This document shows, in pieces, positions 23,021 through 63,216 of a stretch of 64,000 nucleotides of DNA. Position 1 is the stretch's first letter; each line of letters starts with the position of its first letter. A model generated the notes under the pieces. It ran no database searches and was not told where the DNA came from. It saw only the letters and a list, made by a program, of their open reading frames with translations. Location of the stretch: the NCBI RefSeq assembly GCF_004011695.2, contig NC_082422.1, forward strand, positions 1,302,001 through 1,366,000, in the 5' to 3' direction. The translations under genes and the position numbers were made by a program. This DNA comes from Ascochyta rabiei (taxonomy: Eukaryota; Ascomycota; Dothideomycetes; Pleosporales; Didymellaceae).

Positions 23021-23909
23021 CACCCCCTTAGCTTTAAGGCCCTATTAAAGCTAGACACAATTAGCTCTTATTATACCTCTAGGTTAGCAAGCTTTTAGTT
23101 AAGTAATTCTATCTAGGTGTTAGCTGGCTTTCTTTGTTTAGTATGTTTCTCTAGTCCTAGCTACCTTAGAAAGGTTAACTACTTGCTTGTAGGCAGAGCC
23201 TTTGTAAGTCTGTTAGCTAACATCTTAGTAGATAGGACATAGGTTACTGTTATAGTGCCTTTATTTACCTCTTATTACAGCTAGTAGTTGTAAATGTCTA
23301 TATGTTATAGTTTAGTTTAGAGTTTTAAGACTTCCTTATTAATTAATTAGATAGTCTAGGTATTATTATATTAAATAGTAATTAATAATTATAAGAGGTG
23401 TATGCTAAGTTCTAATAATAGTTGTAAGATAAAGATAGCTTCCTTAGCTACCTATGCTAGGGCAAGTAGCTCTGCTTTAGTTGTTAATGTGGTAACTGTG
23501 TCTTGTTTATTAGCTCTCTAGGTAATAAGTCCTCTGTATAGTTTAATAGTATATCCTTAGAAGCTCTTTCTGTTAAGAGTATTATTAGTAAATAATGCAT
23601 TACTAGTAACTACTAGGTGCTTATTACCTCTAAAGGTAAGGGATAGGTCTTATGTTCCTTGTAGGTATAATAGCACTTAATCTGCTGCGTTATAGTGCTG
23701 CTGTCTAGGGTTAGTTAGAAACTGTGCCAGCCTAGATGTAGTAAAGGCAATGTTAGGCCTAGTAGTAACTGCAGTAAAGAGGAGAGATCTAATCTTTCTC
23801 TAGTATTTGTTAATTTCTAATACTACAGCTTCTTCTTTATTTAGTAGAAGCTTAATACTTAATATTAGTGTGTTATGTTATATGTTTGTCTTATCTGCTA
23901 GGGAGCTAA
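23021..23909 (-). mobile_element. Copia-B internal segment: RNase H
   Basis: Minus-strand copia RNase H relic. Near 23,460-23,510 the reverse reading gives ANKQDTVTTLTTKAELLALA, the characteristic copia C-terminal block. Stops come from hypermutation. It is cut at 23909 by Gypsy-B; the reverse transcriptase continues at 42,966. Summing both pieces gives about 5.2 kb, the normal size for a copia element. Confidence 0.8.
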
Positions 23910-24164
23910 TGTTCCAGTATAAGTATCGAAGCATCTTGTTAGCAGGCACATTAGGAAGGATACTTATCATTATCATTGTTAAGAGTTAAAGAGACGGTTA
24001 ATACAGTAGTTAAATTCTATAAGTAAGTAATTCTAGTTGTTGTTGTAGGTGTCCTACCTTAACAGTTCCTGTTAAGGTCTCTTATACCCCTCTGCTAGCC
24101 AGATTACGTACACTAGCTAAGCATCCTAGTTCTTACTAAGGAAGTTACTGTATGCACTGGCACA
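23910..24164 (-). repeat. Gypsy-B left LTR (3' LTR)
   Basis: 255 bp from TGTTCCAGTATAAG to CACTGGCACA. It matches the 273-bp repeat at 42689-42961; the length difference is largely a GA microsatellite in the right copy. A reversed polypurine tract (AACCTCCCCCCCC) follows at 24165. The four bases CTAA before it (23906-23909) recur after the right LTR (42962-42965). Confidence 0.85.
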
Positions 24165-26767
24165 AACCTCCCCCCCCTAAGAGCTTAGCCCTATTAAGCA
24201 AATAAACTAAGTTAAAACTAAACTCTAAACTAATCACAAACCCCCCTTATTACTCCACTTGTTCCTTTCCCTTGCTACCTCCCTGTTTCTGCAATCTTGT
24301 TAAGGCCCTAGTTTCCTAAGTAGGTTGTTAACTAGAGTCTTCTAATAGCTTAGGGGTAGGAGAGTCTAGTACGTGTCTTAATAAACTCTAGTCTAAGGCA
24401 CTGCCTAATTTGTATGTTATCTAGGTAGTAGCCTCTGTTGCTTTAACAGTAAGACTGTTAAATAACTTATTAAGAGCACCTTCCTGTGTATGCTGCCTGT
24501 TCTATAACTCCTATCCTTTCTTATATTCTAGTACTACTCCTTTGTTAGTAAAGAAGGATTAATTAGGGATACCTAACTCTTTATTAGCCCTAAAGCAATA
24601 CTTCTTAGACATCTTTACCTACTGCTAATGCCTCTTTACTATAGCAACGTTGTTATCCCTACTCTTCTAAAGAAACTTTACAAGCTCCTTGTTATTAAGA
24701 CTAAAAATGCAGAGTATCTCTTGCTAGACTAGGTAAGAGTTGTACTAAGCCTAGCAATAAATAGCTTTAGAAATCTAGGAAGAGAAAGTTAGTATTATGT
24801 CTGCTAGGAAAGCATAGGGAGCACTACTATACTTATTTAAATAACCTAACAGTAATAAGGGTCCTAGCGTAAGCATCTAATAAGAACTGGCAATGTCCTT
24901 ATATAATCCTATTTCTAGAATCTCTATAGTTTCTCTGTCCTCTATAACTAGCACGTACTAAGGGAGTATAGTTCTACGCCTTATTATAGACAGTCTAGTA
25001 GACCTATGTAGCAGTGCTAGGTAGAAGATCCTAATGTCTCTATACTTGCAAGGATACTTCTTCTACTTAGCACCTACTACGTCTTATGCTAACTTAGGGT
25101 AGTTAACTGTATCTACCTACCCCTTAATATAACTATTATATTATTTAATTCTATTATCTTTCCTCTAAGCTAAGTATTCTAGAACTAAATTATAGAAGCC
25201 TTCTAGAGTAATAGTACAGTTGTCTGTATCTTTATTATTAAAGGATACTAAGCCCTATATTATGTCTATTCCTCTACCTAACTCTATAGTGTTGTAGAGG
25301 TTACAATCTACATGCTTAAAGAACGTCTAATCCTTAGGCTTAGTGTATTTAGTGTAGTATAGGTAGGATATTAAGTTAGTTTGTTAACAGAGTACTGTAT
25401 AGTAAAGCCAGTACTGCAGATTACCCTTTACTAGCTATTAGATAACAGAGTAGTACATAATCCTACACTACCCTAGGTTACTTTTGCTATGCTTTATACA
25501 AGTATAATAGTTATATATATTAAAGCATTTATCTACTATTTTCTAAAGTTCTAGATTATTTTAAAATATAGAGGCAAACACAGAGACTATAATAGTGCCT
25601 TTCTAGTTTAGACTGTCTGCCTTAGCTTAAAAATGTTAAGATAGGTGCCTAAAGATAAAGTTGTTCTAGTTAAGGTTAAGTACTATAGGAACTAGGTGGA
25701 ATTAATAGGACTGTAGACTATCTATCATGTTTAGTGTATAGAGCTGCTTTTAAAACAGGATCCTAGTTTTTAGGTTGCTCCTCTACTTTCTCTAGCTAGT
25801 CTTATTCTTGTGTATTAGCATAAGCAGGTTAGATATTATAGTAGTGTTAAGAGTGCAGACTAGCAAGCTAAGTTTACTAGTAGTGTACTAGAAATAAGGA
25901 AAGTAAACTTATAACAGGTTAACTGTGTAGTAGGTAATTATTGTTTTACTAGCACCTTCCTCCTTTTAAGTTTCTCTTCTCTTATAGCACTCTTAGACCT
26001 ATACATCTAGGAGCTTTACACGCTCTAGATCCTTAAGGAGCTTCTAGCTAATCTTTATGCAGAGGAGAATAAAGGCAGATTAGCTGTTAGTGCATTTGCA
26101 CTTAGCGCTATCCTAGATATTGTTTATTACGTCTTTACTAATCTCTACGTCTTCCTGTATAGACTAAACATCTAATGTTAATAGGTAGTTAACTTTAGGG
26201 CTTATAACATCTTAAAATAATCTAAATTCTAATAGCCTAATTAACAATTGTTTCCTAGTTAAATAGTCCTCTAGCACTAAAGTAACAGAGCTAAATTGCG
26301 TTCCCCTAGACTGTTAGTACTCCTAAATTGCATCTATTATGCAGCGCTGCTTTCCTGTTTTGTTAACACCTAACTTAAAGGCTATCTAGTTAAGGTTGTT
26401 AGGTGTTGCAGATAACAGGTCCCTTTAGTGTTCTTATTTAATACTTTTAATAATATCCTTAGGGAATTTGTTACCTGTTAGGAATAGCTTTGTATTAGTC
26501 TATGGCCTTATTAGAGTAAGGGATAATCCTCCTAGGGAAACACTTAATTAGCCTGTGGTCCTTATGCTTGTTGCTGGCTTAGTAAGCAACTGTAACCTAG
26601 ATAGTAATGCTAAAGGGGCTAGTGTCTAAACTCTGTTAAGAATGTACTCTAGCGCCGCTTATATTAGTGTAAGGAAGTTCTTAGAGCTAAACGTCATAGC
26701 ATTTAATACTGCCCACTCCTAAGTAATCCTTTCTTTTAGCAAGTAGGGTGTCCTAACACCTTTTAGG

Positions 26768-27404
26768 TGTCAAGGCCACGGCTCTGCCCACCGTGCCAAG
26801 CATGCCAAAAAGGTAACAATGCTCACTTTGATAGTGAGACAGCGGCCAGAACAGTACTTATTGCCATAAGGCTTGCCATTACAGGTCAGAGGTGCGCGCC
26901 ACATGCCTGAGGCTTAAGAGTCTGAGGCTGAGAGCCTAACAATATCTCCCCTTCACAATGAGGGCCTGACCCGGGCCTGACAGGCAGGCATCTGTGGTGC
27001 CAGGATCTGACGCACGCCTATGGCTGCTCAAAGAGATCTCTCTCTTAGGTATCCTAAGTACTAGACCTTCTAGCAGCTACAGCACTAGCCCACGTGGGGC
27101 TGTGCCTCAGCTCACGGATAAGTTGGCTCGGCTGAGACTAGACCCGTGCGGGGTCAACCATCTGCAGGTAGGCCAGGTCTGCCAGCATGATTCGAACCCA
27201 CGCACGCTACAGCTATCAAGGTAAGCATAATGTCAAGGCCACAGCTCTGCCCACTGTGCCAAGCATGCCAAAAAGGTAACAATGCTCACTTTAATAGTGA
27301 GACAGCGGCCAGAACAGTACTTATTGCCATAAGGCTTGCCATTACAGGTCAGAGGTGCGCGCCACATGCCTGAGGCTTAAGAGTCTGAGGCTGAGAGCCT
27401 AACA
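26768..27404 (-). mobile_element. TRIM (terminal-repeat retrotransposon in miniature) with pol III-like boxes
   Basis: A complete 637-bp non-coding element. Two 174-bp LTRs (26768-26941 and 27231-27404; TGTCAAGG...AGCCTAACA) flank a 289-bp core, and the 5-bp target duplication TTAGG lies on both sides (26763-26767, 27405-27409). A polypurine tract (GAAGGGGAGATAT on the minus strand, 26942-26955) adjoins the left LTR, so the element runs on the minus strand. The LTRs differ at only about three sites, all transitions, and the element keeps many TCA, CCA and TTCGAA sites lost around it: a young insertion, or one too short to be hypermutated. On the minus strand, TGGCACAGTGGG (A-box-like, in the 5' LTR) and GGGTTCGAATCA (B-box-like, in the core) are about 60 nt apart. 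Confidence 0.85.
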
Positions 27405-28022
27405 TTAGGTTAAAGATTAGTGCTAGTAGTTAGGTCTTCTACAGTGCAAGTGCCTGCATCTACTATTAGTATGTTTTTAAAGTTAGGTCCCTAGTTAGGC
27501 ACACGTCCTACTCTGTTGCTTTTAGCTTTAGTACGCCTTTACCTAGTGCTTTTGCCTTTACTATAAGTAGGTAGGTCTTGTTGTTTAGGTGCGTAACAAA
27601 GTTTATTATGTCCTGCTAGAGCATGTTAAGGGCTTAGTAGACTATATTCTAGTTACTTAAGTTATAGAACTTATCCCTCCTCTTTTGTAGCATAGATAGG
27701 CGTTAGTAAATTGCTAAGTTAATAAACTTAGTAAGGTTGTTAGTGTCTACTTAGTAGACATAGTATATAATTAAGTTAAGTGTTATATACTCTATAGCAG
27801 ACTATAGGTAGTATAGTGTTACTATGTTTACTAGAATGTTTTTACTATTGTTATTTTCGCAGATGTACTTTATAGCTTGTGCTATTTCTGTTATCTTCCT
27901 CTAGTTATAGTCTGTTGCTGATTAGATTGCTAGGTATTAACTATTAAAGTTGCTTATGCCTCTGTATTGTGTAACTAGGTTTAGGGTTTACTAGATAATG
28001 TCTAATATTAAGTGTATTATAG

Positions 28023-28509
28023 TGTTACGATCCTGTGCTAGGGCACAGCACAAACATAAGTACCAGCCAACCAAGACCCCTAACTCTGCTCTAAAGGAAC
28101 GAACAGTAGAGAAGGACAGAACAGATAGGGATGTTACGTGACTGCTTGTTAATAAGCATAACACACGTAACTGCTTATTAACAAGTATAGTACAATATGC
28201 TTGTCCACAAGCACCCTTATATATTTTATTAGACTAACTCTAGTTACTTATTAATAAGCACTGTATCTCCTTAGTATATAGTTAGTAGGAACACAACCCT
28301 TATAGTTTGTGTTTAACCTTATTAATTAAGTTTGTCTTTAGAATCTTAACCTGCTCTTAAACTAGACAGTCTACTCTGTACTATTTATTGCACCCTATCT
28401 TTACAAGCTTTGCTTAGTTAATAACCCTTACTAATCTAGTAACTGTACTTATCTCTAAAAACTAATAGAATTAGTACTTACAGTCTTTAACTAAAGTACA
28501 ACTTTAACA
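28023..28509 (+). repeat. Gypsy-A 5' LTR
   Basis: 487 bp from TGTTACGATC to CTTTAACA, the same length as the 3' copy at 34527-35013, with only about 19 differences, all transitions. Most differences lie in the last 200 bp and leave this copy the more mutated. Flanked on the left by TATAG (28018-28022). Confidence 0.95.
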
Positions 28510-29520
28510 TTTTAAACACCCCTAAGATAAGTACCTCTACAGGATCCTGTGCTACCCCTAGCAGCTCTAACATAGACGTTAACGTAGACCTACTAGTCTA
28601 CACCTTAGGCATAAACGTTAATAAACCTAACCTTTACTATAGAGACTGCAGCAAGCTTAATAACTAGCTTATTTAATAGGATCTCTTCTTCACCTTCTAA
28701 GGCAAGAAGGTTCCTGAGATTAAACAAGTAGTCCTTGCAGCTAGCTACATGCGTAGCAAAGCGTTTACCTAGATTAAGCCCTTTGTACAGCAGTACTAAG
28801 CTGGCAAAGCTCTAGACAACGTAGATGTATAGATAAGAGACTTCAACCTATTTAAAGAGAAGATTAAGCTAATCTTTAGAGTCTCTAACGAACCACACAT
28901 TGCCTGCTGCAACATTTAGAAGATTAAGCAGGACAAGTTAGCCGCCGACTACGCCGCAGAATTTCAGCAGCTTGCTGCTAACACTAACTAGGACAATACT
29001 GCTCTAATTACTATGTTTTAACAAGGATTAAAGCCTAAGGTTAAGGAAGAACTTATGCGCACCAGCGCGAGTACAGAAACCCTTAATAAGCTTATTAACA
29101 CTGCCATTAATATTAATGTACAACTCTACAAACTTCAGCAGGAACTTTAAGACAATCCTAGAGCGCGCACTACCGTTATTGCTACTAACTAACTGCTACT
29201 AAGGAACCAGTAGCGCAACAACCTGAACTAAGGACAGCAAGGAGGCTGTAACTAGCCAAATACCGGTTGCTGTATTTATAGCAACACTTAGAGTAGATAC
29301 TACAGACCTAAAGCAATAGACCTCTCAAACCTCAACAAAGGACCACCTAAGCAATGGAATGAGAAGCCTAGAGGGGGCAAGCAATCAGGAGGTAGCAAGG
29401 ACTGCTACAACTGTGGCAAACCAGGCCACTTTGCCAGGGACTGCTGGATAAATAAGGTTCACCGCCAGTTAAATGTACTTGCCTGTGATTATAACAACAC
29501 AGAAGCTAGTAAATAGGAAA
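28510..29520 (+). pseudogene. Gypsy-A gag with CCHC zinc knuckle
   Basis: Plus-strand gag relic. A retrotransposon-gag core is legible at about 28,730-29,120 (YAAEFQQLAANTN and KPKVKEELMRTS). An intact CCHC zinc knuckle, CYNCGKPGHFARDC, lies at about 29403-29444 in a patch with little mutation. Gag would form the virus-like particle and package element RNA. Many TAG/TAA codons, mostly from CAG, CAA and TGG, make it non-functional. Confidence 0.8.
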
Positions 29521-30680
29521 TTCTTACTAATAATATAGGACGACTGCTGGAAGACCTAGAGTCTGGTCTAGAGGACGATAACAACTGTATCGTACCTCTA
29601 ATTCGTGTAGCAACACCTTACCAGGATGCCCAGACAGGCGAAGAGACGGAGTACTACTCCAACAACGATCAATAATACCACGCGGTAGAATACAAGAGGA
29701 CCTACAGCAGAGTCTAAATAGGCAAGAAGTACAATAGGCCCTTCCACAAACAAGGAACGCGTTACTTCACCCCTAACAGTAGAGAATTAATGGTTGTAGA
29801 ACCAAAACCTAAAAGCGCGAAGAAGGACGACAGGCTTAACAACATCCTAGCCTACAAGGAAACAGAAGACTACCAGCAGAAGATAGACAACCTGCTAGAC
29901 ACTTTAGGACAAACACTTAGCTAGATTGCTAAAGCAACGCGCAAACAACAGCGCTTAGCTTAGCAACACCAGAAGCAAGAAGACGAAGAAGCCTATTGCT
30001 GAATGTGTTAGGAACTCGTTAGCCCTATCAAAGGACCCGAGATAGCGGAAATGACACTAGAGCTCCAGGAGCTCGTCCACCAGTTTAAGAAAGAAATCGA
30101 CAACAGCGAAAAGTTCGCTAACAACCTAGAAGAAGCTAAAGACCAGCTTTAGTGTAAGCGAGAGACACAGCTCAGCCTAGAACGTATGCGGAAGCAGAAA
30201 GAAGAGCTACTGCTAATTAGCCTACAGCTACAGTACATCCTAGACCACCAAAACCTAAAATATAGAAACCTTACGTAGACAGCATGCTCTAAGGACAGAT
30301 GCATAATCTATTATAACAAGAAGCTTAGTGCAGGATGGTTCCTGGCACAACAAGGCCTCTGTTGCAACTAATGGTACTAGTGTCACAATGACCTGTATAA
30401 ACTTCATCTTATTAACAAATGCCAGAAAGCACACTTTCCTGGTACAGATAACCCACAGGCCACGATACAAATGCAGCTAGTAGTTAACAGGAGTTGCTAC
30501 AACGCACACTGGCAGAACTGTCTTAATGCAGACTGCAAGAAACACCGCACTACTAAGGAATACGAAGGGTTCAGTAATAAGGGGACTTTTTTAGGCCAGC
30601 GCCTACAAGCCCTAGGGATCGATCTATTAATAGTATTAGGACTAATTACCTTATTAAACTACCTATTAAACTAAATAGAG
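29521..30680 (+). pseudogene. Gypsy-A gag/pol linker region
   Basis: Coding-like but unrecognised, glutamine- and charge-rich sequence with a predicted coiled-coil character (around 29,850-30,230). A Cys/His-rich segment at about 30,350-30,560 (CCNxxWYxCHND, NCLNADCKKH) may be a second metal-binding module. It contains the only longer open frame in this part (30471-30674). Function unknown; its homologue is present in the second copy at 59,8xx-60,6xx. Confidence 0.5.
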
Positions 30681-33600
30681 TAGTCTTTTTAGCACTCTTA
30701 GACTTAGGAGCACAAGCGAACTATATATCCCAGACAACAGTGTTCTAAGCTAAACTTAGATTATATCACAAGAAACACGCTTACTTGCTCTAAGTAGCTA
30801 ATAGAGAATTGATGCTGGACAAACTGCTGATTATGTTTGAAGTGATAGCAGCACCCCTACAGATACAGGGGCACTACAAGGAAATAAACCTAGACGTCTT
30901 TGTAAAGGCCACGCACAATGTTATACTAGGACTCCCCTAGTTATAAAAGTACAACCTAAAGATAGACTAGGCACAAGAAAGACTTTTGCTAGAAGGATGC
31001 AAATGCGGCACTAATGCATCTACGCCTACGCAGCGCACGCAGCAGCTGGTAGATAAGAAGGAGATTAACAATGTCTCTTCAACACATAAGACGCGCCAAG
31101 ATAGAGCAGTCAACTCTGCAGATACTAAGAGCCCTACGGATCACAAAGCGAGAGTTAAGGAGGAAAAGAGTGCACCTCCTGTTATCCCTAACGTTTACTA
31201 ACAGTACGTAGAGATGTTTAGAGAAGAGCTTACAGTAAAAGCCCTGCCTAAGCATAAACCCTAGGATTACAAGATCAAGCTCCAGGAAGGAAAGACACCA
31301 ACTTTTGGGCCATTATACTAACTATTAGAAAAGGAACTTAAAGTACTTTGCAAGTACATTAAGGAGAACCTTAAGAAGGGATTTATTAGAAGATTAGAAT
31401 TACCTGCAGGGTACCTAATCATGTTTGTTCCTAAGAAGGATGGCAAGCTACAACCTTGCATTAACTTCAGGAAGCTCAATAAAATCACTATTAAGAACCG
31501 CTACCCGCTCCTGAACATCACAGAGTTGCAGGACTGGCTAGCAGGAGCTTAGTACTTTACAGCGTTAGATCTATAAGGCGCGTACAACCTTATACGCATA
31601 AAGGAAGAAGAAGAATAGAAAATAGCATTTAGGACGCAATACGGACTCTACAAGTACCTAGTTATGCTGTTTAGTCTAACAAACGCACCAGCAACGTGTC
31701 AGGAGTTAATTAACAACGTCCTTAGAACACACCTTAACAGAACTGTGGTAGCGTACCTAGACAATATCTTAGTGTACTTAAAGACACTAAAAGAGCACAC
31801 GCAACACGTTACAGAAGTGCTAGAATGCCTATAGCAGGCAGACCTACAGCTTAAACCTAAAAAGTACAAATGGCACAAGGAGGAAGTTGAATTCCTGGGG
31901 TACATTGTAGGACAACACAGAGTCAAGATTAGTCTAACTAAGGTGGAAGTAGTCAGGACCTGGCAGACGCCAAAAACGGTCAAGCAGATCCAGGAATTCT
32001 TAGGATTTGTTAACTTTAACCGACGCTTCATTAAGGACTACTCCAAGATCGCAATCCTGCTGACAAAGCTCACGCGGAAGGACACACCATTTAAGTAGGG
32101 ACAAGAACAAGACAATGTGTTTAAGGCACTTAAGCAAGCCTGTATTGCACCTCCTATATTAATTATATTTTGCAGCAGCAAACTAATACGCATAGAGACT
32201 AACGCCTTAGATCTTACATTAGGCGCATGTATCACGTAAGAAAAGGATAGACTATAGCACCCTATTGCATACTACTCACGCAAGTTCTTAGGACTAGAAG
32301 AACGCTACAATGTGCACAACAAAGAATTACTTGTAATTATATCAGCCCTGGAACATTAGCAACCATATGTAGAAAGTTGCTTAGTACTTACTATCTATAC
32401 TAACTACAAGAACCTGGTATACTTTACTACAAGTAAAGTCTTAAATAGACGCCAAGTACGTTGGTCTAAGATGCTTAGACAATACAAATTCAGGATACTA
32501 TACACTCTAGGCAAGGACAATAGCAGAGCTAATGCACTTAGTTAACGACACGACCTTACTAGAGAAAAAACAATTAACCAGTTCGCAGTGTTAGGAATCA
32601 ACAACGATGGATCCCTAGGACTATTGCAGCAGCTCAACAACATAATGCGAATCGAAATTAACTAGCGCATCACATCAGACGTACCAGAGGAACTTTAGGA
32701 TAAAATTATAGCTAATTACTATAATAACCTGCTACACAGACACCCTGGAATTACACACACAATAGAACTTATTAAACAACACTACAAGTTTAGCAACATA
32801 AAGGATAAGGTTACTAAATACATAAAAACTGTGTTAACTGCCAGTAAAATAAACACAGTACACACGCAAAATATAGAGAAATACAGGCAATAGAGCCGCC
32901 AACAGCACTATAGACGAACATTACAATAGATTTTATTACTTAGCTGCCTATCTTAAGAGACCCTGTTACTAGATACGACTACGACTCAATCTTCGTTATA
33001 GTCGACAGATTCACCAAGTACGCTAAAATAATACCGTTTTGACATAGTTACACTGCAGAGCAGCTTATACAAGTGTTCCTAGATTGACACATAAGGCATT
33101 ACAGCATACCTGAATTAATTATTAGCAATTAAGACAAGCTCTTTACGTTAAACTACTGGACTACGCTCTTGGCAGCTATCGGTACCAAGAAGAAGCTCTT
33201 AACAGCCTATCATCTGCAGACGGATGGACAGACTGAAAGAACTAATCAGACCATAGAAACATACCTACAGATTTACAGCAACCAGCAGTAAGATAACTAG
33301 GTTTTGCTGTTACCTATAGCACAGATTGCATATAACAACAAATTGTTAGAAGTAACAGGTAAATTGCTGTTCTTCCTGAACCACAGGATGCACCTAAATC
33401 TCTTTACCAGAAGTCTGGATACGCCAATTCAGACTAAATTAGCAATATCCTTAGTAGCAAGACTGAAGGAAGTGCACAAGAAGGTACTAGAAAACATTAG
33501 TAAGGCTTAAGAACAAGCAATCTTATATGTTAACCAGAAAAGAAAAACAGCACCTTAGCTGAAAGAGGGGGATAAAGTCTATCTCCTTACTAAAAACCTT

Positions 33601-33980
33601 CGCACACAAAGACTAACAAAAAAACTGGACCACGTTAAAGTCAGACCCTTTTTTATTTCTAAGCAGATAAGCACAGTTAACTATAGACTTAATCTGCCAA
33701 AGGATGCAAAGATCTATCCTGTGTTCCACATATCGCTATTAGAACCAGCCAACCTAAGAACGCCTATCTAAAAGAACTTCCATTATTAAGCCGACGGCGA
33801 AGATGAATAGGAAGTTGAAAAAATAGTAACACATTAAGGGAATAGCAACTAACAAAGATACCTGGTTAAATAGTTAGGATACCTAGACTTAGAAAACACA
33901 TAGGAACCACCTGCGCACCTTACAAGTTGCTACTAATTAGTACGCAAGTACCATAATTCGCAACAGACTCTTTGATTAAA
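30681..33980 (+). pseudogene. Gypsy-A pol: protease, RT, RNase H, integrase, chromodomain
   Basis: Order of domains: aspartic protease near 30,690 (ALLDLGAQANYI, mutated DSGA); reverse transcriptase 31,260-32,040 with [19 protein letters not shown] and the catalytic box YLDN at 31754-31765 instead of YLDD; RNase H 32,140-32,545; integrase 32,690-33,500 with IDFITQLP-like D1, SNQDKLF where D2 should be (Asp lost) and ERTNQTIE with the final Glu; a C-terminal GDKVYLL...PVFHISLLEP module; then a chromodomain at about 33,805-33,960 (EVEKIVTH, RYLVK, ENTQEPPAHL). The order PR-RT-RH-IN-chromodomain makes this a chromovirus-type Ty3/gypsy element. Stops and lost catalytic residues make it inactive. 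Confidence 0.9.
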
Positions 33981-33991
33981 CCAAGAGCCCC

Positions 33992-34426
33992 CTAGGTAGC
34001 TGGCGAGGCACACATGCCAATGGACGCAGCAGGACAGTTAGGATTAACTTCCTTAGCCAGGTCCAACTTGCCAGCCTTAACCATCCCATTTGCTAAACAC
34101 AGCGCCTTTTGCCGCGCGCGTTTATTTACCTGTTTTAGGATTTTCTTATTACGCAATAATTGCGCAATAACAGTTGTAAGGAGCAACTTGTCTTCTTCTA
34201 CTTTTTTCTTATACTCCTTACAAGTCTTATCTAACAACGCCTAAGACATGTTTATATATGGCTTGCCGGCCTTTATACACTTAGCACACTTTAGACCTTT
34301 TAGACTACCTAGCATAATATAGCACTTATAGCCGCTAAAGAAACAATAATTATAGGGGACTTTAGTGGGTGTATTAGCTTGGCAGATTTCTAATGCAAGA
34401 CGGATGTTGCAGGCGTACAAGGACAT
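33992..34426 (-). CDS. Antisense ORF of Gypsy-A: CxxC plus coiled-coil protein (one nonsense codon)
   Basis: Between the chromodomain and the 3' LTR, on the strand opposite pol, one frame is open for 144 codons apart from a single TAG at 34241-34243 that fits a mutated Trp codon. It starts MSLYACNIRLAL at 34426, has LKCAKCIKAGKPYINMS (CxxC), then a highly charged helical region (CKEYKKKVEEDKLLLTTVIAQLLRNKK split), ending in a Pro/Cys segment. Its near-intact state contrasts with pol, which has dozens of stops. I recall comparable small Cys plus coiled-coil ORFs near pleosporalean retroelements, but the function is unknown. It might be an accessory or regulatory protein of the element, or a passenger. 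Confidence 0.55.
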
Positions 34427-34505
34427 CTTAACTTACAGGTTACTAGATGCAGAGATCGCAGATTATATAAAACTCTAACAGACAATTATATAGTTTAAGG
34501 ACAAA

Positions 34506-34526
34506 CTAAAGGGGAAGGGGGGATAG
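34506..34526 (+). other. Gypsy-A polypurine tract
   Basis: The purine run AAAGGGGAAGGGGGGAT lies immediately before the 3' LTR TGTTACG, the position for plus-strand priming in LTR retrotransposons. Confidence 0.8.
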
Positions 34527-35013
34527 TGTTACGATCCTGTGCTAGGGCACGGCACAAACATAAGTACCAGCCAACCAAGACCCCTAACTCTGCTCTAAAG
34601 GAACGAACAGTAGAGAAGGACAGAACAGATAGGGATGTTACGTGACTGCTTGTTAATAAGCATAACACACGTAACTGCTTATTAACAAGTATAGTACAAT
34701 ATGCTTGTCCACAAGCACCCTTATATATTTTATTAGACTAACTCTAGTTACTTATTAATAAGCACTGTATCTCCTTAGTATATAGTTAGCAGGAACACAA
34801 CCCTTATAGTTTGTGTTCAACCTTATTAATTAAGTTTGTCTTTAGAATCTTAACCTGCTCTTGAACTAGACAGTCTACTCTGTACTATTCATTGCACCCT
34901 ATCTTCACGAGCTTTGCTTAGTTAATAACCCTTACCGATCCAGTAACCGTACTCATCCCTAAGAACCAATAGAATTAGTGCTTACGGTCTTTAACTAAAG
35001 TACGACTTCAACA
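34527..35013 (+). repeat. Gypsy-A 3' LTR
   Basis: 487 bp, ending CTTCAACA. It is followed by TATAG (35014-35018), the exact copy of the left flank, so the element is a complete 6,991-bp insertion. This copy keeps CpG and TCA/CCA sites that are mutated in the 5' LTR. Confidence 0.95.
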
Positions 35014-35556
35014 TATAGCTGCTAATTTGTTAAACTTAGTAACTGCTCTACTTATCTAGAAGTTAAGCATTTCCCTTTACGCCTGTAGCTCTCCTTAAGT
35101 AATCTCTATTATAAACTAGCTAACTGTAGATCCCTCTATATATAGTATTAGGATATTAGCAACCTTAGTAATGTCCTTACTCTTAATAGCCTTTAAGACT
35201 AATAACTACCACACTACCCCCTCTCCTAGTTCTAGCTCCTTCTGTGCAATTGCCCTTTGCTGCAATATTATAAACTTTATGTGTAGTAAAGTAGATATAA
35301 AGAAGTTATAAGCTAATGTTATAAGGGGGAGAGTTAGAAGTAACAGGGTAGCTCTGCTTTAAGAGTGTCCTAGGCAGCTGTAGGCCTGCTTTTCTTCTAC
35401 ATTTTTACTTACTATTTATGTTTTTTACTTACTTTTACTTGCTATAATTGTTAATTGTTTATAAACAGTTATTTTAGTTATAAGCTGTTAGCTTACACCT
35501 TTCTCTATACTTAGTAAGTGCCTAGGCTAAGTTATTTTTACTAGCGTTAAGTTTTA

Positions 35557-35601
35557 GCTAATTAGGAGTCAACTAGTAAGACCTGGTAACTGCTAATTAG
35601 C
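35557..35601. repeat. 45-bp palindromic repeat, copy 1
   Basis: GCTAATTAGGAGTCAACTAG at the left and CTGCTAATTAGC at the right form an imperfect hairpin. It is the reverse orientation of copies 2 and 3. It lies in the non-coding part of Gypsy-B after integrase. Confidence 0.8.
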
Positions 35602-38600
35602 TTGTAGCTTCAGTAGTTAGGATGTTACCCCTTCTATCTTTAGCAGTCTGTCCTATAGACTACACTGCTATTCCTTATTATTAGAGTCTAAATTTAATAA
35701 TTTATTATATATTTTATATTACAGTCTTTTGTACTGCGTAAGAGGTTAAGAGTAGATTTTAATACTTAGTAAATTGCAACTAGTAGGTGTTCTTCCCTTG
35801 TCTGCTAGAATAGGGGTGCTTAAATTCTTAGCAACCTTACTTTTTCTACTCTATAGAAACATGTCCTTATAGTTTTAATTCTAGGTATCTTCTCTCTATA
35901 CCTTTATAAGTCCCTTCTCTTCTAACTAAATGTCCTCTAGTAAACGCTTACAGAACTTCTTTATTCTCTACCCTAGTACTGTATGTAGCATACTAGTCCT
36001 GTTAAGGTCTTTAAGTAAATAGGTGCCCCTGTCTAGCTGTATTCTGTTAAGTGACACTTAGTATAGCCTAAGCCACTTCTTTCTTAACTTCTTATCTCTA
36101 GACATGTTAATTTGTCCTACTAAGTCCTACAGTAGAACTAGGTCTCTAGGGTTAATCTACTTATGCCGAACTTTGTTGTTATCGTCCTAATATTCCTTTT
36201 TTAACGCTCTTAGTTAATTAGTTATGCTAACTGCATCTTTTAGGAACTAATTCTAGAGATCTAACTACATAGCCCTAATTGCAAGTAGTTAAGCCCTGTT
36301 CTTAACCTTCTAGAATAGTAGTGTTTGCTATATTAGTAGTAACAGTTTAATTAGAAGAACTAGGTTCTAGCTAGTAATAAGTTAATATGCTAAGTATCCT
36401 ATAGATTGTATAGAGATCCTGTTAGCTAAGAGCACTGTTAGTAGGTTATCTACCTATAACCCCTTAAGCTTTGCAAGTACGTTAACAATAGGTTTATGTC
36501 CACCCTCTACTTTTCCTATTACTTAAGGGTTGTGTGCGGAGGCCTGTACCCTCTTAATACCGTAGATTAAAGTAAGCCTCTTAACTACTTTAGTAAAGTC
36601 TAGTCTGCTGTTAACTATAAGTCTTCTTATAGTGCTCTACCTATAGACAATGTCTTTATATAGGAACTTTACTACTGTTAACAACTTGTTATTATAAAGT
36701 GCCCTTACCTCTATCCACCTACTTAAGTATTCTCTAGCTGCAACTAGGTACTAGAAGCCTCTGCTTATTAGCATGTGCACAATATTAATAGCAACTAACT
36801 CCTACAGTGTATAGAAGTAGGTACTAGTTAATATATCCTTTATAATCTTAGTTACTCTAAGTTAGCACTCCTTACACGTAGAGATTTTTCTCTTAACACT
36901 TCTGTACATATTAAGCTAGTAGTATTATTAAGAGACTATAGAGAACACCGCATTTATACCCCTATAACTAATAGTTTAGTAGATATCCTATATAACTGTA
37001 GTTTAGATATCTACATTATTAACTATACGCCTAATAATAATATTCCTTAATATTTTTTAGAATAAGTAGCTGTCCCTCTTAAAGAGGTTTATAGCTCTCT
37101 TCTTCTAAGCCCTACACTCTTTCCTACTTAACCTAACTAGGGTCTTTAGGAAGTATAGAAAAACAGCAATGTCCTCTAATTTCTAGAAGTATTCCTGTCT
37201 TAGAATCTAGGTAGTCCTTATGTTAACCTGGTTACCTAATACTACGTTTGCTATTAGGTTTTTAACAAACTCTTTAACGTCAGATTTAGGTTTATCTAGG
37301 TTCTCCCACCCCTCTAGCTTTTGGTATCTTAATAGTGCATCTGTAACTATATTCTTCTTTCCTAGTATATAGCGTATTTTAAAGTCCTAGAGTAGAATTA
37401 CAGCAAGCTACCTGTTTATAACTAAGCCTAGAAGGTCTAACAACAACCTATTTAGCTAGGTAATTAATATTTAGGTGTTATTCTTAATAATAAAGTGTAT
37501 ACTATATAGCTACATCCTAAACTTCTTAAGTGCCTAAACAACTACATTGCATTTAAGCTTTGTTAAGTGCTACCTACTTTCTACCTTAGACTAGATAGTG
37601 CTTTTAAATCTGTATAGGTGTTATTTTCTGTCTAGGCCTATTTGTTTAAGGCATGCTCCTGCGCCTTTATTACTTGCATTAACTAAGAGAAACACTAAAC
37701 TGGGATTTTTGTGAGATATTGTTATAAGCGCAGGTGTATTAATAATATGCTCTTTTAGGAGTAATATTAAGCTCTGTTCTGCGTTGCCCTATTGCTATAC
37801 TGCATTATTCTTTAATAACTAGAATAGTAGCTTTACTTTTAAGGCAAATAAGAGTATCTAGATATAGTAGTAAACTACAATTCCTATAAACATCTAGACC
37901 TCCTTTAGGTTCTAACACTCTAGCTAATTTGTAATTTTATTAACTTTCTTTTGTGCTGGATATTGTCCTTCTACCAAAACTTTGTAGCTAACCACCCCTA
38001 ATTGATCGTGTCCCTAGTAGCATTTAAGTCCTAACACTGTGCCCCTAGCTCTTTCTACGTCTGTAAGGACCCTATCTAGTTACTAGATGTGCTTAAGCAT
38101 ATATCGCCTAACACTAGGTAAAGCCTCCTTACTATTATAATCTATCTTTAGGCTACTGCTAGTAATATTATTAAGGAAAGGAAGTGTATCTAGCTAGTAA
38201 TCCTTAAGAATCTTTGTTATAATTCTTTAGAAGACAGCTACTAAGTTAGTAGCCCCTTAAACTAGGGTACATAATTATAAAAGGCTAATTAGCGTTATAA
38301 CTGCTGTTATGTCTCTACTATCTTTGTGCAGTATTATCTAGTTATAACTAGAGAAGAAGTCTATAAGTAACATAATCTTATAGCTAGTAAACCTCTTAGA
38401 GAACTTGTCTGTAGTTAGAGGGGTTCCTGCATCTTAAACAGAGACCCTGTTTATGTGTTTAGCGTTGTTAATAAACTAGAATCTACTGTCTTTCTTAGAT
38501 ACTAAATGCTATAGGTTTCTGTATTAGCTGTTGTATTGCTTATGTGTTCCTTATTCTAATCTTTTGTTTAACATCTAAATAAGTTCCCCTTCTAGACTTC

Positions 38601-39988
38601 TTATAACAGGGAAGGTCTTAACCTGCTAAGCTTTGTGTAGAATTGTCCTAATTTAGTATAGAGGAGAAACCTCCTTCTAAATCTACCTAGATTTAGAAAA
38701 AGTAAAAGCTATAGCTGCTTCTCTGTTTAGGATTATTTCCTTAAAGAGCGCTATCTCTGCTAGGAATAGAGTATTGCCAAACTTCTAATCTTTTATTCTC
38801 TAGGGAGTAAGCCTTTTTCCTCTTAGGAACAGGGCATATTACCTTTTAAATAAGTAATTAAAAGGCCTAAAATTATATAGCCTTAAACTAACTATTAGCT
38901 GCTGTTGTTTATATGCAACTCTTTTCTAGTCTTCCTAAGTAAGTTCTATAGGTTTATTAGGTTATAGATTATTAACATGTTAAACCTTTACCCCTACTTG
39001 TTTATAGAGTATATTAACTTCTTAGTTTTTAACTATATTATACTAACTTCTTGTCCTTAATAATTATAAGTTTATTTAGGATAGTAAGATAAGGAAGTCC
39101 TTATCTGCATGTACCTGCCTAGGGTCCCCTCCCTTAGAGATCTATTAGAGACTGCTGGCATCGTTCTGTGTAAAGATAAAACTACTTAGGCCTTTTAAGA
39201 TTCCTAAATCTATAGTTATACATAGGAAGTAGTAGTTTACTTCTACTAAGTAACAGACCTTTAGTGTTGTTAGGTCTTTACTAGTATCAGAACATCCTAG
39301 CCTAATTAAGGAGTTCCCCTAACTTTTCCCTTATCCTAGTTATGCTTAACTAGGGTAGAGTAGTAATGAGATAGGTCTAATGCAATAAAGGTAGCGTTCC
39401 TCCTACTATTATTAGACATAATACAGTACATAGTTCTTCTAAAAACGTTATACTGTATAGCTAGTCTTACTAATAAGCACTATAGCATTCTAAGGATAAC
39501 TAATCTTATTAGGTTCCTTACAAGTCTGAAGTGCATTAAGGTTATAACTTCTCTAATCTAGACTAGGACATTCTACAACGTTCTAACAAATAGATCTATG
39601 CTACTATTAGCTGTAATAACGCCCTGCTCTTTTCCTATTAGGTGTGTTATTTCTTTGTACACTATTCCTAGCGCTTAAGAAGCACTAAACCTTATTATAC
39701 TTATCTAAGCTCTAGTATTAATTAAGCAGCTAACTGTATGTAACCTAATACAAGCCTAGCATGTTAGTAAGACTTAGTACACTAGCGTCTCTAACCTAGT
39801 AGTTTCTATAGTTTTAGCTAGCTTATTTAGAGGATCTTTATTTTCCTATGTATTGCTGTGTGCTTCCACTTAGTAGCTTCTGTAAGCATTCCTCTCTAAT
39901 CTAATATTAAAGTATTAAGCCCTGCTGTTCTTAATTATAGGGTAATTTTTTCTAAACTTGGCGCTAGTGCGGACCCTTATAATTTCTA

Positions 39989-40033
39989 GCTAATTAGCAG
40001 TTAACTAGTAAGACCTGTTAACTCCTAATTAGT
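39989..40033. repeat. 45-bp palindromic repeat, copy 2
   Basis: GCTAATTAGCAGTTAACTAG on the left, TTAACTCCTAATTAGT on the right. The arms pair with one mismatch and extend a few bases outward (TCTA/TAGA). Sits between gag and pol of Gypsy-B. Confidence 0.8.
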
Positions 40034-40080
40034 TAGAACCTCTGGCCCCTAGGATCGCTACGTTAACGCTCCTGCTAACT

Positions 40081-42424
40081 ATTAGGTTAGAGTCTAACTC
40101 CTTTATAAGCTTCTGGAACATTGCTTAGATATAACGCTAGGAGACTAAGTCTCTAACAGTAATCCCTTGTACTTCTTAACAAAGAATTGCAGTTAGAATC
40201 TTGTTTTTAGATAGTTTAAGTAGGTTAGCTATTCTATTGTCTAAGCTAGTTATTAAGTGCTTCCTCTTTTGCTAATTCAATAGTAGAATAGTTTCTAATA
40301 CCTTTTCTTATAATAGTAGTTTAATAATAGCATACAGCTAACTGTAAGGTTAACTAGTAAAAGGTATTATTTACTTGTTCTCTATTAGCAAAGGGCTTAA
40401 CTCTAACAAGTCTTTAATATCTACTACTAACTTATCTCTAGCATTATTGTATACTTGCTTAACTGTAGCTTATAAAAACGTTAAAGGTCTTTCTTTCCTA
40501 ACTACAGCTCTCTAAGCTCTTTATAGGATAGTATTAACTTAGCAGTCGCGTGCCTTGTCTAACCTAGTTACTGCGTTTAAGGAGGAGCTATCTTTAACGT
40601 TATATGCCCCTAGTACAATATCCCTGTTATTAATGTAATTAAGACTATACACTTTGTAATAGTTATTGTTAAGGATTTAGAAGTTCTAAAAAGAGTGCAA
40701 TAACTTATAGTCTGGCTTATAATTATCTATTATAGTTAGTGCGCTAACACTTCTAATAATCTTTCCCTATATATCTAGGCCTGGGCTAGATCTATACATT
40801 ACCCCTCTAGGCCTAGAGTCTACACCTTTAAATAGATTAGGCTTAACTACAGAGGCTGGCTAGTCTAAGACATCCTGTAAAACTTTAAAGCACTCTTAAA
40901 TCTTCTGTTTTAACTAATTAAGTTAATAAGTAGGCAGGACAGATCCTTAGATAGGTTTAATTTAATAGTAAGTAGGACCAAAGTAGTATCTGCATTAACT
41001 GTCTTAGTTAAGCTAAAAGCTGCACTACTCTATGTAGGTAAGTGCTCTGTATAATTTACACTTGTAGGCTTAGTAGTTTAGCTCTCTACACATGTTACAG
41101 GAGTTACTATACTTTCTTCCTTAGGAGTAGTTTACTTCTTGTCTTAGGTTAACGTTCCTAGGTGCGTTAGTAATGTAAGAGCCATTGTTCCTTTCCTAGG
41201 TAGCACTAGCTCTAGTTGCTTAAGAAATAAAGTAAGTATAATTAGTAGGAGACTAAAGGATCTCTCTTATCTAATTGTTGGAGTTTATAAGGGTGCTAAC
41301 CTCTGCTAGGGATAACTTCTATCCGCCTATTGCCTAGACAAGCTCTTTAACGTCTTTATTAATACTAGAAGGTAGAGGTGTTTTACTCTTACTACCCTAA
41401 CTAGCCAGTTAATCCTTAGCCTAGGTAATAATAGACTTAGCGTTAATTAGCTCCTTAGTGCTGTTTATAAGGCGCTAGGTTTCCTTATAATATTTATTAT
41501 CCCTTCTAAGCGCTAATTTCTTTAAGCGTTAGCGCTGCTTATGCACCCTTTTTATAAAATTATAGATGTTATTAAGTATAAATAAAGATTAATCTTTTAT
41601 GTCTAGCCTGTTTTGCATGTTAAATAGGACAAGGTCTTTGTTAACCTTTAGCAGTCCTAAGAAGAAGTAGTATCCTTCCTTAGAGGTTAGAATTTAATTA
41701 TTCTTTTAATATATATTACTGTACACTACAAAGTTAGTATAGTAGTGTAATAGTCTAGGGAAGGCTTAAGAGGTTTCTTTAATATAGGCTTTAAGGAACG
41801 CTTAATTGCCTATACGTTAAGCAGTGTCCTAGTCTTTCTAGTAATCCTTTATAGCAATCTAAAGCTTAACCTAATTATCTATAGCATATAGTTTTAGGCG
41901 TTTAATAAACCTCCTGCAGTAATTATAGCAGTAGTTAGGGAGAACCCTAACCTTCTGCTTATTACTTAACCCTCTGTTTTCTGCTATATAGTTATAGTTA
42001 TTAAGGAACTCTATAACCTCCTTTTTATTAAAGGATAGTTAGATAGACCTTCCCTTTATTAGAATAACAACCTAATAGCTGTTTCCTGTTAGGGAAGACA
42101 GTGTCTCTATAGAGTCTAAAGGGTTATCTATAGTAGTGTACATTAATCCTTAGTAGTCTGTTATATTAAGTAGATAATAGTTTCTTATAATTAAAGTAAT
42201 CTTAATTGCTCTGTCTGTTAGAGCAGCTTAGTCCCTGTCTTTTATGTTCCTCTTGTCCTAAGTCCTAAGGAATAGGGCTAAGCAGAACTATGCGGATAAT
42301 ATATATAATAAGCATTAGAAATTAGACTAAGATAGTCCCTTTACTAAGGCTTTTCTAGGTTAACTAGACGCCTACCTTGTTTTAAGCTTGTTTTTCTTGT
42401 TTTCTAAATAATAGGTCTGATAGT
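40081..42424 (-). pseudogene. Gypsy-B gag and N-terminal polyprotein region (putative)
   Basis: By position between the 5' LTR leader and pol this should hold gag. The minus strand has coding-like, stop-peppered sequence but no domain I can name; no CCHC knuckle could be picked out. Assigned by location only. Confidence 0.45.
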
Positions 42425-42645
42425 AACGTCCTAGTCTAGAGTTAACAGGATAATTCCTAGGCCGTGCCCCAGCCTTTAGAGTGGCAGATATTTACATAAT
42501 AACGTCCTAGTCCAGAGTTAACAGGATAATTCCTAGGCCGTGCCCCAGCCTTCAGAGTGGCAGATATTCAGATAATAACGTCCTAGTCTAGAGTTAACAG
42601 GATAATTCCTAAACCATACCCTAGCCTTTAGAGTGGCAAAATTTT
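42425..42645. repeat. 76-bp tandem repeat, nearly three units, in the Gypsy-B leader
   Basis: Units begin AACGTCCTAG at 42425, 42501 and 42577 (period 76 bp); the third is shorter and more mutated. Each contains AGAGTTAACAGGATAATTCC and a GCCCCAGCC core. They lie between the 5' LTR and gag of Gypsy-B, in its transcribed leader on the minus strand. The first two units keep more GC than their surroundings. Confidence 0.85.
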
Positions 42646-42688
42646 GATGTTGCCTGCTATACCGTGCCCCCTGGTTAGGTTACCATTT

Positions 42689-42732
42689 TGTTCCAGTATA
42701 AGTATCAAAGCATCTCGTTTAGCAGGCACATC

Positions 42733-42961: not shown

Positions 42962-45900
42962 CTAATTTTGTTAATGTATAACGCCTGTAAGAGGAGGATC
43001 CTTAGGTTATCTTAATCTTAGGTTATCTCTACTCCTAGGAACTATTGCAGATTATTTCCTCCTGTAACAGAGTATTTGTTAGTAATATAGCTAAGGGCCT
43101 TATCTGCCTTATATTTTCTAGTTAGATAAAAAGCTATAATAATATTGTCTATATAAAAGAAGATAGTAACTCTATCCTTAAGTAAGCAGCAGGGTTTATA
43201 GGGAATAACTGCAAATCTATAGCTTGTTAGAGTAGATGTAAATTCCTTCTGCTAGAGGAGTAGAGAGATTCTTAGTCTATATAGTGCCTTATGTAGCTGT
43301 AGGACTATACCTAGTTTCTAATACCTGCATAGCATCCTTATATAGACCTCTCTATTAATTAATATATAAATAAAAGCGTTTATAATATTAAACTACTTAA
43401 GTTCTAGGTTATATACTGCTGAAATTACTATAAGCATTCTAAAGGTCCTGCTAGCTAGTGTCGCTGCGTAGGTATCTTTAGAGGTAATATTTTGTTGCTA
43501 GTTACCTTAGACTACCAGTTGCGCCTTATATTTAAGTAGGTAGTAGTTCTTATTAAGCTTATACGTGTATACCTACATATAATTAAGTATCCAGTGTCCT
43601 TCTACCTTAGTCTTTGTTAGGGGTACTTTAGACTATAACTTTATGTTCTAATAGCTACTAAAGTGTTCTTACGTAGCGTCTTTAAACCATTTATAAAGCG
43701 GGTGGTCTTCTAGGTTTAATTGTGCTGTTAGCGCTAGTAGAAGTTAGCTTTAATAAGGCTTAAGCCCCTTTATTAGCATTTATTTTAACCTAGCCCTATT
43801 AATATTATTGCCCTAGTATATGCCTATGTATCTGCCTAATATGCTAGCTATAAATGCAGCTTTCTACAGAATAGTTTATAAAGTTCCTTAAGATTGCGCT
43901 AGCGTTAATTCCAACTAATTAGCAGTTAACTAGTGCTACCTGCTAACTCCTAATTAGCTGTTACCTCTTACTAACTAGGATAATAACAACATGTTTATTA
44001 ACAACATATCTAGTAGTAGAGTTAGAGGAGGAGTTAGATATATATGTCTAGCTTTCTGTCTATTCTTATATTCTAGTTAATTATCTATAGTATTTAAGTG
44101 TGTAATAGTGTTGTCCTTATAGAATAACTAGATTTTAGCCTTATTTTAGGGTAGAGGTAGAAGCTCTATACTTCTTGTCTATATTGCTATCTCTTTAAAA
44201 GTGCTGTGCATAAGGTTGTCTATTAGGTCCTAAGTCTAGCCACTAAAGACAGTATCCTTATTAAAGATTACATCTCTTGTGCTAATAACTTTTGCTAAGG
44301 TTAGAATCTATATCTAATATATGTTTAAGGATTAGTATCCTACTAGGTATCCTACCTATACTCTTAGGTTTAGTTACTAGAGTTATAATTTTCCTTAAAG
44401 GGTGTTACTTGTAAGAGCAAAGGTTTTACATCTATATGCTTTTAGATATACCTAGTTTAGTTTTCTACTTTATATGTTTAGGCTAGCTAGTTAAGCTGTA
44501 TAGGTAAAGAATATATTATAGGGTATTTTCTAGTTATTTAATAACCTTAGTGTTTAGTTGTGTAGGTATACTGCTGCCCTTATATTTTTAGCTATATTTC
44601 CTATAGTAGGTTTGCGTCTAATCTTATAGTGCGTGCCTTATCTTTTATTACACCCCCTAAGCGTTTAGCACCTCTATTCTGTGCTTAGGTGTCTAGTGCA
44701 GAAGGCTTAAGCCTAATTAATTGTGCAGCGCACTATTGCGATACTTCTAGTTTTATTGTAGTGACTTTACTATTACACTTAATTACCTTAACCTAGATCT
44801 TGTATTATTTTAACAGGAATTGTGTAAGAGTGTCTAGGAAGTAGATAATTGTCTTTCCTAGTTAATTATCTTTAAAATAGAAGTCCTAAAGGAAGCTAGA
44901 TTACCTATTAACAGCAAGTAATTAGCTCTTTTTCTTATTAAAGCTTCTTTCTTTATATAAGTGGAAGTTAATTGCTATGCGTTCTCCTAGTCCTTTATTG
45001 CTTATTTGTGGTATTTAACTAATTTGCCTCTTAGTCGTAGCCTGTCTGTAAGCATTATATTAGACTATAGTAATACCGCTAACTCTTACCCCCTAAGATT
45101 ATTAGATAAGGTGTTTAATTGTAGCAGCTCTAGGGTGCCCTATTTGCTTGTGCTATAGCAGGGCAGTAGCAGTCTTAGGCATTTAGCTTTGTGTTAATTA
45201 TATTGTAAACACTGTCTGTAGCTGTTCCCTAAGTACCTATTATCTATGTTTTTTATCTAAGGGGGTAATAGCTGTGTTGTCTACTTGTCTAAGCTAAGTT
45301 AGATCTCCTTTTGTGTCCTACTAGATGCCCTGTTAACGTAGTTGTTAGAAAGAGATAAGGTTGCAAAGTATGTCTAGGCACTATGCTATATTGTGTAGTT
45401 TAAGAGTAGTTAGTTAGCTTATGTTTAATAGATAGAGGTAGACAGTGCTATATCCCTGTATCTATACCTAGGAGTCTCCTACCTATAGGTAGTTGTTTAA
45501 TGTAGGTAGAGTAAGGTCTTATATCTAGTCCTTGTTGTTTATAATATAGATTGTTAATCCTAAGTTAAGGATAAAGAAGTTCCTAAGAGGGTAGCTTAGT
45601 AGCTCTATATTGTATAATTCTTTAACTAGACATATGTTAATTATTAATATCTTTAGTCTCTGTAGTTACCCTAGAGGTGCCTCTAGTGTTAGGATGTCTT
45701 AATAGCTATTGTCTTAGTATAAGCTTGTTTTGCAGATCTAACCTAATCTTAAAGGTTAGCATTTTGTTCTATCCTAAATTATACTATCTTAGCAATTCCA
45801 TTACATAGACTAAACTATTCTAGTGCTTAATCTTTATAGACGTAGTAGCAATCTTCTAGTTTATAGCGTTGTCTACAAGTAGGGTATTTTACTCCTCTAG

Positions 45901-62500: not shown

Positions 62501-63216
62501 TTGTATAAACTAGGCAAGGACAATAGCAGAGCTAACGTACTTAGCTAATAACATAACCTTACTAGAGAAAAAAAAATTAACAAGTTCGCAGTATTAGGAA
62601 TTAATAATAATAGGTTACTTAGACTATTGCAGTAACTAAACAATATAATGCAAATTAAAAACAAACAGCGCATTACATTAGATGTACTAGAGGAATTTTA
62701 GGACAAAGCTATAGCTAATTACTACAATAACCTACTATACAGACACCTTAGAATTACACACACAATAGAACTTATTAAGTAATAATGTAAGTTTAGTAAT
62801 ATAAAGAACAAGGTTACTAAGTATATTAAGAACTATGTTAACTGTTAACCAAATAAATATAGTACATAAGCAAAATATAGAGAAATATAGGTAATAGAGC
62901 TGCCTACAGCACTATAGACAAACATTACAATATATTTTATTACACGGCTGTGTTATAGGCTCAGACCTTGTCTGAGCCTTAAGCGAGACGGGACGGTTAC
63001 GTGTTCTACAGACATATTAGAAGGACACGCGACGTGCTACCTCCTTAAGAGATACAATACCATATCGACCCTTATTGCATCCTACCCTAAGGCCAGTCCA
63101 TAACAAGCTGCCTATCTTAAGAGACCTAGTAACTAGATACACCTACGACTTAATCTTTGTTATAGTTTACAGATTTACTAAGTACACTAAGATAATACTG
63201 TTTTAACATAGTTATA
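59578..63216 (+). mobile_element. Second Gypsy-A copy (5'-truncated, heavily decayed)
   Basis: Homologous to Gypsy-A from its zinc knuckle (about 29,407) to the middle of integrase (about 33,047), in the same orientation. Mutation is much heavier: most TGG, CAG and CAA codons are now TAG/TAA, the zinc-knuckle Cys/Gly codons are changed, and small indels shift frames. About 180 bp corresponding to 29,650-29,830 is missing. RT is still recognisable near 61,720-61,780 (RTVVAYLDNIIVY). It is interrupted at 62951-63105 by a solo LTR and ends at 63216 where a Fot1-like transposon begins. Confidence 0.85.
62951..63105. mobile_element. 155-bp solo LTR (or tiny LTR element) inserted in integrase
   Basis: Comparison with the intact Gypsy-A integrase shows an insertion of 155 bp, TGTTATAGGCTC to CAGTCCATAACA, with inverted ends TGTTAT/ATAACA. 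It is flanked by GGCTG (62946-62950) and AGCTG (63106-63110), a 5-bp target duplication with one transition. It has no coding content and retains many CpG and TCA/CCA sites, so it arrived after the host copy was hypermutated or is too short to be targeted. Confidence 0.75.

Follow-up and report, generated by a model that had tools for sequence, protein, structure and literature searches.

What is encoded by the additional open reading frame (ORF) that lies downstream of integrase in a Gypsy-type long terminal repeat (LTR) retrotransposon of Ascochyta rabiei, and does its product serve the element? The ORF is located in a window of 64,000 nucleotides (the whole stretch of DNA analysed, positions 1,302,001 to 1,366,000 of NC_082422.1, assembly GCF_004011695.2; coordinates below are counted from its first letter), within a relic termed here Gypsy-B. 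We propose, with a probability of roughly 0.6, that a Gypsy lineage of filamentous ascomycetes carries, between integrase and the 3' LTR, a separate gene for a DUF1479/PhyH-like dioxygenase dependent on Fe(II) and 2-oxoglutarate (2OG), and that this gene serves the element. The gene of the lineage would encode roughly 1,000-1,200 residues, comprising a largely helical N-terminus, a CxC...CxxH motif and the dioxygenase core.

The accessory ORF and its open homologues

The relic of the ORF is split by nested insertions into three parts, with the following features:

24252..26767, (-) strand: 3' part of the accessory ORF relic, with the catalytic domain; no other frame of its strand has so few shared stops
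27405..28018, (-) strand: middle part of the accessory ORF relic, flanked by the nested insertions
35015..35247, (-) strand: 5' part of the accessory ORF relic (approximate), on the far side of the nested Gypsy element, its end mapped from copy L039
24841..25323, (-) strand: catalytic core (dioxygenase-like) with HxD, distal His and Arg, used as a query
25306..25314, (-) strand: HVD, the HxD iron-ligand motif (His in 39/39, Asp in 38/39 homologues)
25006..25008, (-) strand: distal His, 102 residues downstream of the first one (kept in 38/39 homologues)
24976..24978, (-) strand: Arg, the expected 2OG-binding residue, 10 after the distal His (39/39 homologues)

The four motifs, distal His and Arg from which an earlier note had deduced this ORF do lie in one minus-strand frame (FFKHVD at 25323-25306, DNCT at 25224-25213, PCKYRDIR at 25053-25030 and RRRTILP at 24981-24961), and the HxD-His-Arg spacing of the window copy is matched in homologues. 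The frame occupies ~3.5 kb of the interval from pol to the 3' LTR. In an alignment of 30 copies over 2.6 kb, of which 23 copies are nearly full-length, it contains 49 stops common to at least 90% of the copies, vs 94 and 84 in the other frames of the same strand, as expected of a relic gene. The motif set is more than a chance occurrence, because the frame has an end-to-end match in an open protein of 1024 residues, P0003.

When the window copy, with X at its stops, was used as a query, P0003 was the only match among 726 candidates (48% identity over the whole query region, E-value 3.3e-65), and in the reverse search P0003 matched the genome relics, with residues 2-1021 covered at 37% by the top match. 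In the homologues, which are 566-1180 aa long, the residues for iron and 2OG are kept in almost all of the 39 rows. That HxD, His and Arg are conserved nearly completely makes it quite improbable that the fold has been kept for a non-catalytic role, e.g. as an RNA-binding or structural partner. The N-terminal region of the encoded protein appears largely helical. One scan of viral contigs revealed no relative of the dioxygenase homologues, and the two homologues tried had no match in PHROGs.

Residues 411, 413, 475 and 478 of P0003 form a near-invariant CxC...CxxH motif, which precedes the dioxygenase core and may be a zinc site.

Predicted fold and family

From the HxD-H-R residues together with the double-stranded β-helix in predicted models of homologues, the ORF product is predicted to be 2OG-Fe(II) dioxygenase-like, in agreement with the earlier note. 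DUF1479/PhyH-type structures rank first for these models among the 50 rows listed per run, and the predicted core fold is shared with DUF1479/YbiU/GIG2 (PDB 7twe, 4rgk and 6akz, by title; we take 2csg, 2dbn and 2dbi to be YbiU). The chains of these proteins are however only 397-451 residues long, compared to ~1,000 here, and E. coli YbiU exhibits no sequence-profile similarity to A1. In 14/39 homologues the core matches the PhyH profile (PF05721) weakly, at E<=0.1, whereas the homologues here possess a long extra N-terminal region. DUF1479 is absent from the Pfam list of the 39 homologues at the same threshold, and no Pfam family matched the X-marked window piece. A relative that is still intact would be expected to bind Fe(II) and 2-oxoglutarate and to hydroxylate a substrate. 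To our knowledge, DUF1479-type dioxygenases have not been known from mobile elements.

The HxD-H-R core is also compatible with a TET/JBP-type enzyme that would oxidise methylcytosine and shield the element from methylation or repeat-induced point mutation (RIP), and there is a precedent in fungal DNA transposons and Helitrons, which carry TET/JBP genes proposed to counter silencing (PMC12730594). Such an identity is nonetheless very unlikely for our ORF. The Tet_JBP profile (PF12851) matches none of the 39 homologues (E<=0.1) and nothing in the genome (E<=1), where all copies found are broken, DUF1479/PhyH-type structures are the nearest folds listed, and the copies are of RIP-type composition (see below); the TET/JBP link drawn by the earlier note is thus not supported. 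TET, AlkB and JmjC structures are not among the 50 fold rows listed per run, although such a listing excludes nothing.

The retrotransposon and the linkage of the ORF to pol

The outer element comprises the following parts:

23910..42732, (-) strand: outer element "Gypsy-B", an LTR retrotransposon of Gypsy type with a truncated 5' LTR and two nested elements inside
23910..24164, (-) strand: 3' LTR, 255 bp, TGTGC start and GGAACA end
~24165-24178: G-rich polypurine tract adjoining the 3' LTR
42689..42732, (-) strand: 5' LTR remnant, with a putative primer-binding site just inside
36000..38997, (-) strand: RT-RNase H-integrase (RT, reverse transcriptase) frame of pol, with stops
36202..36999, (-) strand: integrase region of pol, relic, query for searches

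Paired LTRs with ends of the TG..CA type, a polypurine tract, a target duplication and the domain order identify it as a Gypsy (Ty3-type) element. A BLAST comparison with other genomic copies revealed a common sharp edge at ~23906-23910 in 27 copies, which corresponds to the LTR edge, and in copies L039-L041 the element is uninterrupted at both sites where nested elements cut the window copy. The uninterrupted C4 copy is 11,416 bp long, with an LTR pair of 255 and 253 bp, read by eye in this one complete copy (the other LTR was found in a neighbouring stretch). Its 3' LTR is preceded by a G-rich polypurine tract and its 5' LTR followed by a likely primer-binding site; the latter, like a 4-bp target duplication with TA at its centre, was read by eye. 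The size of 11.4 kb given in the earlier note is therefore correct, and the load of the ORF accounts for it. The ORF and pol lie between the single LTR pair of this copy, the ORF on the pol strand and downstream of integrase, as the earlier note also stated. The limits of the interval 24250..35330, to which the element had been assigned, need revision: the 3' LTR is just outside, the element extends to ~42732, and pol (~39000-36000) is outside as well. Nine relatives can be aligned with the pol relic, covering 93-100% of the query, and the three open ones scanned exhibit the order RVT_1, RNase H, Integrase_H2C2, i.e. that of Gypsy elements.

The genome searched comprises 40.9 Mb in 23 contigs. 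The 76 matches to the catalytic core were merged to 67 ORF loci; the integrase query yielded 74 matches, of which 57 close ones correspond to 54 loci; the other 17, more distant (30-38% identity), were assigned to another family before the count. Integrase was found upstream of the ORF, on the same strand and within 30 kb, at 51/67 ORF loci, with a constant spacing of 4,022-4,063 bp at 30 of them. The dioxygenase-like ORF is a constant part of the LTR retrotransposon in this genome.

The pol search identified 9 proteins (best 7,990 candidates scored), among them the putative gag-pol polyprotein of Stemphylium lycopersici (P0051; 46% identity over 93% of the query). For two of the nine, the longest contig is exactly as long as that of a dioxygenase homologue: 14,013 bases for P0010/P0046, with 8 contigs on both sides, and 12,508 bases for P0008/P0049, with 2 and 1. 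This strongly suggests that the dioxygenase is physically linked to pol in two other lineages. In the catalytic-core tree, the own copies together with P0003, P0008 and P0010 are on one side of a 100/100 split (18/41 rows), with the caveat that the own-copy rows deviate in residue make-up; the pairing of the ORF with pol therefore probably predates the divergence of these sequences.

The 17 distant integrase matches (16 merged loci) represent a distantly related Gypsy family, full of stops, which has an ORF locus within 15 kb at 2/16 loci and no dioxygenase of its own among the P0003/P0028 matches. On contig C3, near 1.40 Mb and at 2.02-2.03 Mb, inverted pairs of ORF copies with identical scores suggest local inverted duplications. 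Just inside the 5' LTR of the window copy there are three 76-base tandem repeats (42420-42647), present also in the C4 copy, and a ~60-base near-palindromic repeat occurs at 35548, 39980 and 43905, two of the three sites being inside the outer element. Rfam gave no match at E<=0.1 across positions 20000-64000.

Evidence against the proposed gene and its linkage

Several results speak against the proposed dioxygenase gene of a Gypsy lineage. At the level of the family, a phmmer search of the PDB with P0003 gave no match at E<=10, the A1 profile obtained 7 weak matches in the PDB with no dioxygenase among them, hhalign of A1 against the single E. coli YbiU sequence returned a probability of 0.83%, and among ten homologues scanned singly only P0017 passed the curated PhyH cut-off. 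At the level of linkage, integrase is missing from the 30 kb upstream of 16/67 ORF loci, 6/54 integrase loci are unpaired with an ORF, the partnership in the two other lineages is deduced from equal contig sizes, not from DNA, and 7/9 pol relatives lack a contig of equal length among the best 7,990 candidates. At the level of the copies, all 76/76 core matches contain stops, every match being scored as broken, and no selection on the ORF during amplification is detectable by the codon-position test (29/34/44 transversions over the codon positions among copies in the catalytic frame, p=0.19).

The 16 loci devoid of integrase could be taken as a sign that the dioxygenase is an independent mobile element, inserted into the Gypsy element. 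This explanation is disfavoured and is the least probable of those considered here, given that the edge shared by 27 copies coincides with that of the LTR, that the spacing to integrase is constant at 30 loci, that one LTR pair with a polypurine tract and target duplication encloses both the ORF and pol, and that equal contig sizes with pol relatives recur elsewhere.

RIP and the state of the copies

RIP kills repeats in ascomycetes. The 30 aligned copies are AT-rich and carry its signature (GC 0.31-0.38, TpA/ApT 1.96-2.23). In homologue columns conserved to at least 70%, the stops of L039 and L040 fall into Gln/Trp/Arg columns in 7/7 cases each, vs 21/132 columns overall, as RIP-type transitions would give; in the one LTR pair compared, 20/253 sites differ, 8 of them in RIP context. 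With this composition and stops in every core match, there is no visible sign in this genome that the family was protected from RIP, contrary to the suggestion of the earlier note that the enzyme countered RIP.

Five stop codons of the core are common to 30/30 copies, with 5 others present in 1-19 of 30, and in pol 83 codons are stops in at least one of 4 copies, 56 of them in all 4. The mutated fraction at CpA/TpA and TpG/TpA sites is two-peaked, the fixed class including always-TpA sites. Because many stops are common to all copies and the site spectrum has two peaks, we infer that the visible amplification probably started from an already mutated founder, whose copies were moved by borrowed machinery. 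Convergent RIP as the sole source of the shared stops is disfavoured by the same two observations. An ORF that was probably broken before the visible amplification explains nothing about the present state of these copies.

The broken state of every scored match, the many stops shared by 30/30 copies and the near-even distribution of transversions would all be expected if the element had on one occasion acquired a host metabolic dioxygenase that was then copied along as a passenger of no benefit to it. We consider such a passenger unlikely, since almost all of the 39 homologue rows retain the residues for iron and 2OG, equal contig sizes point to a like partnership in two other lineages, and no intact host homologue is present among the matches scored in this genome, including those obtained with P0003 (stops in 45/45 matches scored, 106 candidates) and P0028 (stops in 46/46 matches scored, 68 candidates) as queries.

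Possible role and precedents

The apparent retention of a separate enzyme gene downstream of pol suggests that the proposed dioxygenase has a role in the life cycle of the element. As the leading possibility we speculate, at somewhat less than an even chance, that the enzyme hydroxylates or demethylates a chromatin protein, RNA or a modified base, and that the altered substrate would facilitate expression or integration under host silencing. That an LTR retrotransposon lineage encodes its own counter-defence dioxygenase, altering or removing a silencing methyl mark on histone, RNA or DNA, is a more tentative and rather doubtful possibility.

Gypsy elements of 25 kb in the orchid Phalaenopsis possess an extra ORF with an AlkB (ALKBH5-like) N6-methyladenosine (m6A) demethylase, active in vitro (PMC9289625). 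Both these orchid elements and the present one thus have an extra ORF with a 2OG-Fe(II) dioxygenase domain; the former are however from a plant, 25 kb long and of the AlkB type, whereas the latter is fungal, 11.4 kb long and encodes a putative enzyme of predicted DUF1479/PhyH-like fold. The fungal TET/JBP-carrying elements are likewise similar in encoding a 2OG-Fe(II) dioxygenase, but the present element is an LTR retrotransposon without a TET/JBP match. No dioxygenase-bearing fungal retrotransposon was found among the papers listed from the literature searched, which took in few subscription journals. If our proposal is true, this third pairing, of another dioxygenase class with fungal LTR retrotransposons, would suggest that acquisition of 2OG dioxygenases is a repeated answer to host silencing. 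The open homologue family makes the question of the substrate testable, and the ascomycete setting does the same for enzymatic resistance of retrotransposons to RIP.

Nested and neighbouring elements

Two nested elements occupy ~7.6 kb of the interval 24250..35330:

26768..27404, (+) strand (arbitrary): nested element resembling a terminal-repeat retrotransposon in miniature (TRIM), 177-bp terminal direct repeats
28019..35014, (+) strand, opposite to the outer element: nested second Gypsy element, 492-bp LTRs 96% alike

The TRIM-like element is G+C-rich and apparently little RIP-mutated, with terminal repeats 98% alike; it has at least 45 matches in the genome (40 of 115 candidates scored), many of them only about one repeat long. 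The second Gypsy family has a partial relative, 83-86% alike, at 59578-63214. Further along the window, 43028-45120 and 47446-49478 are two diverged inverted copies (66-67% identity), in whose translation copia-like RT words can be recognised by eye.

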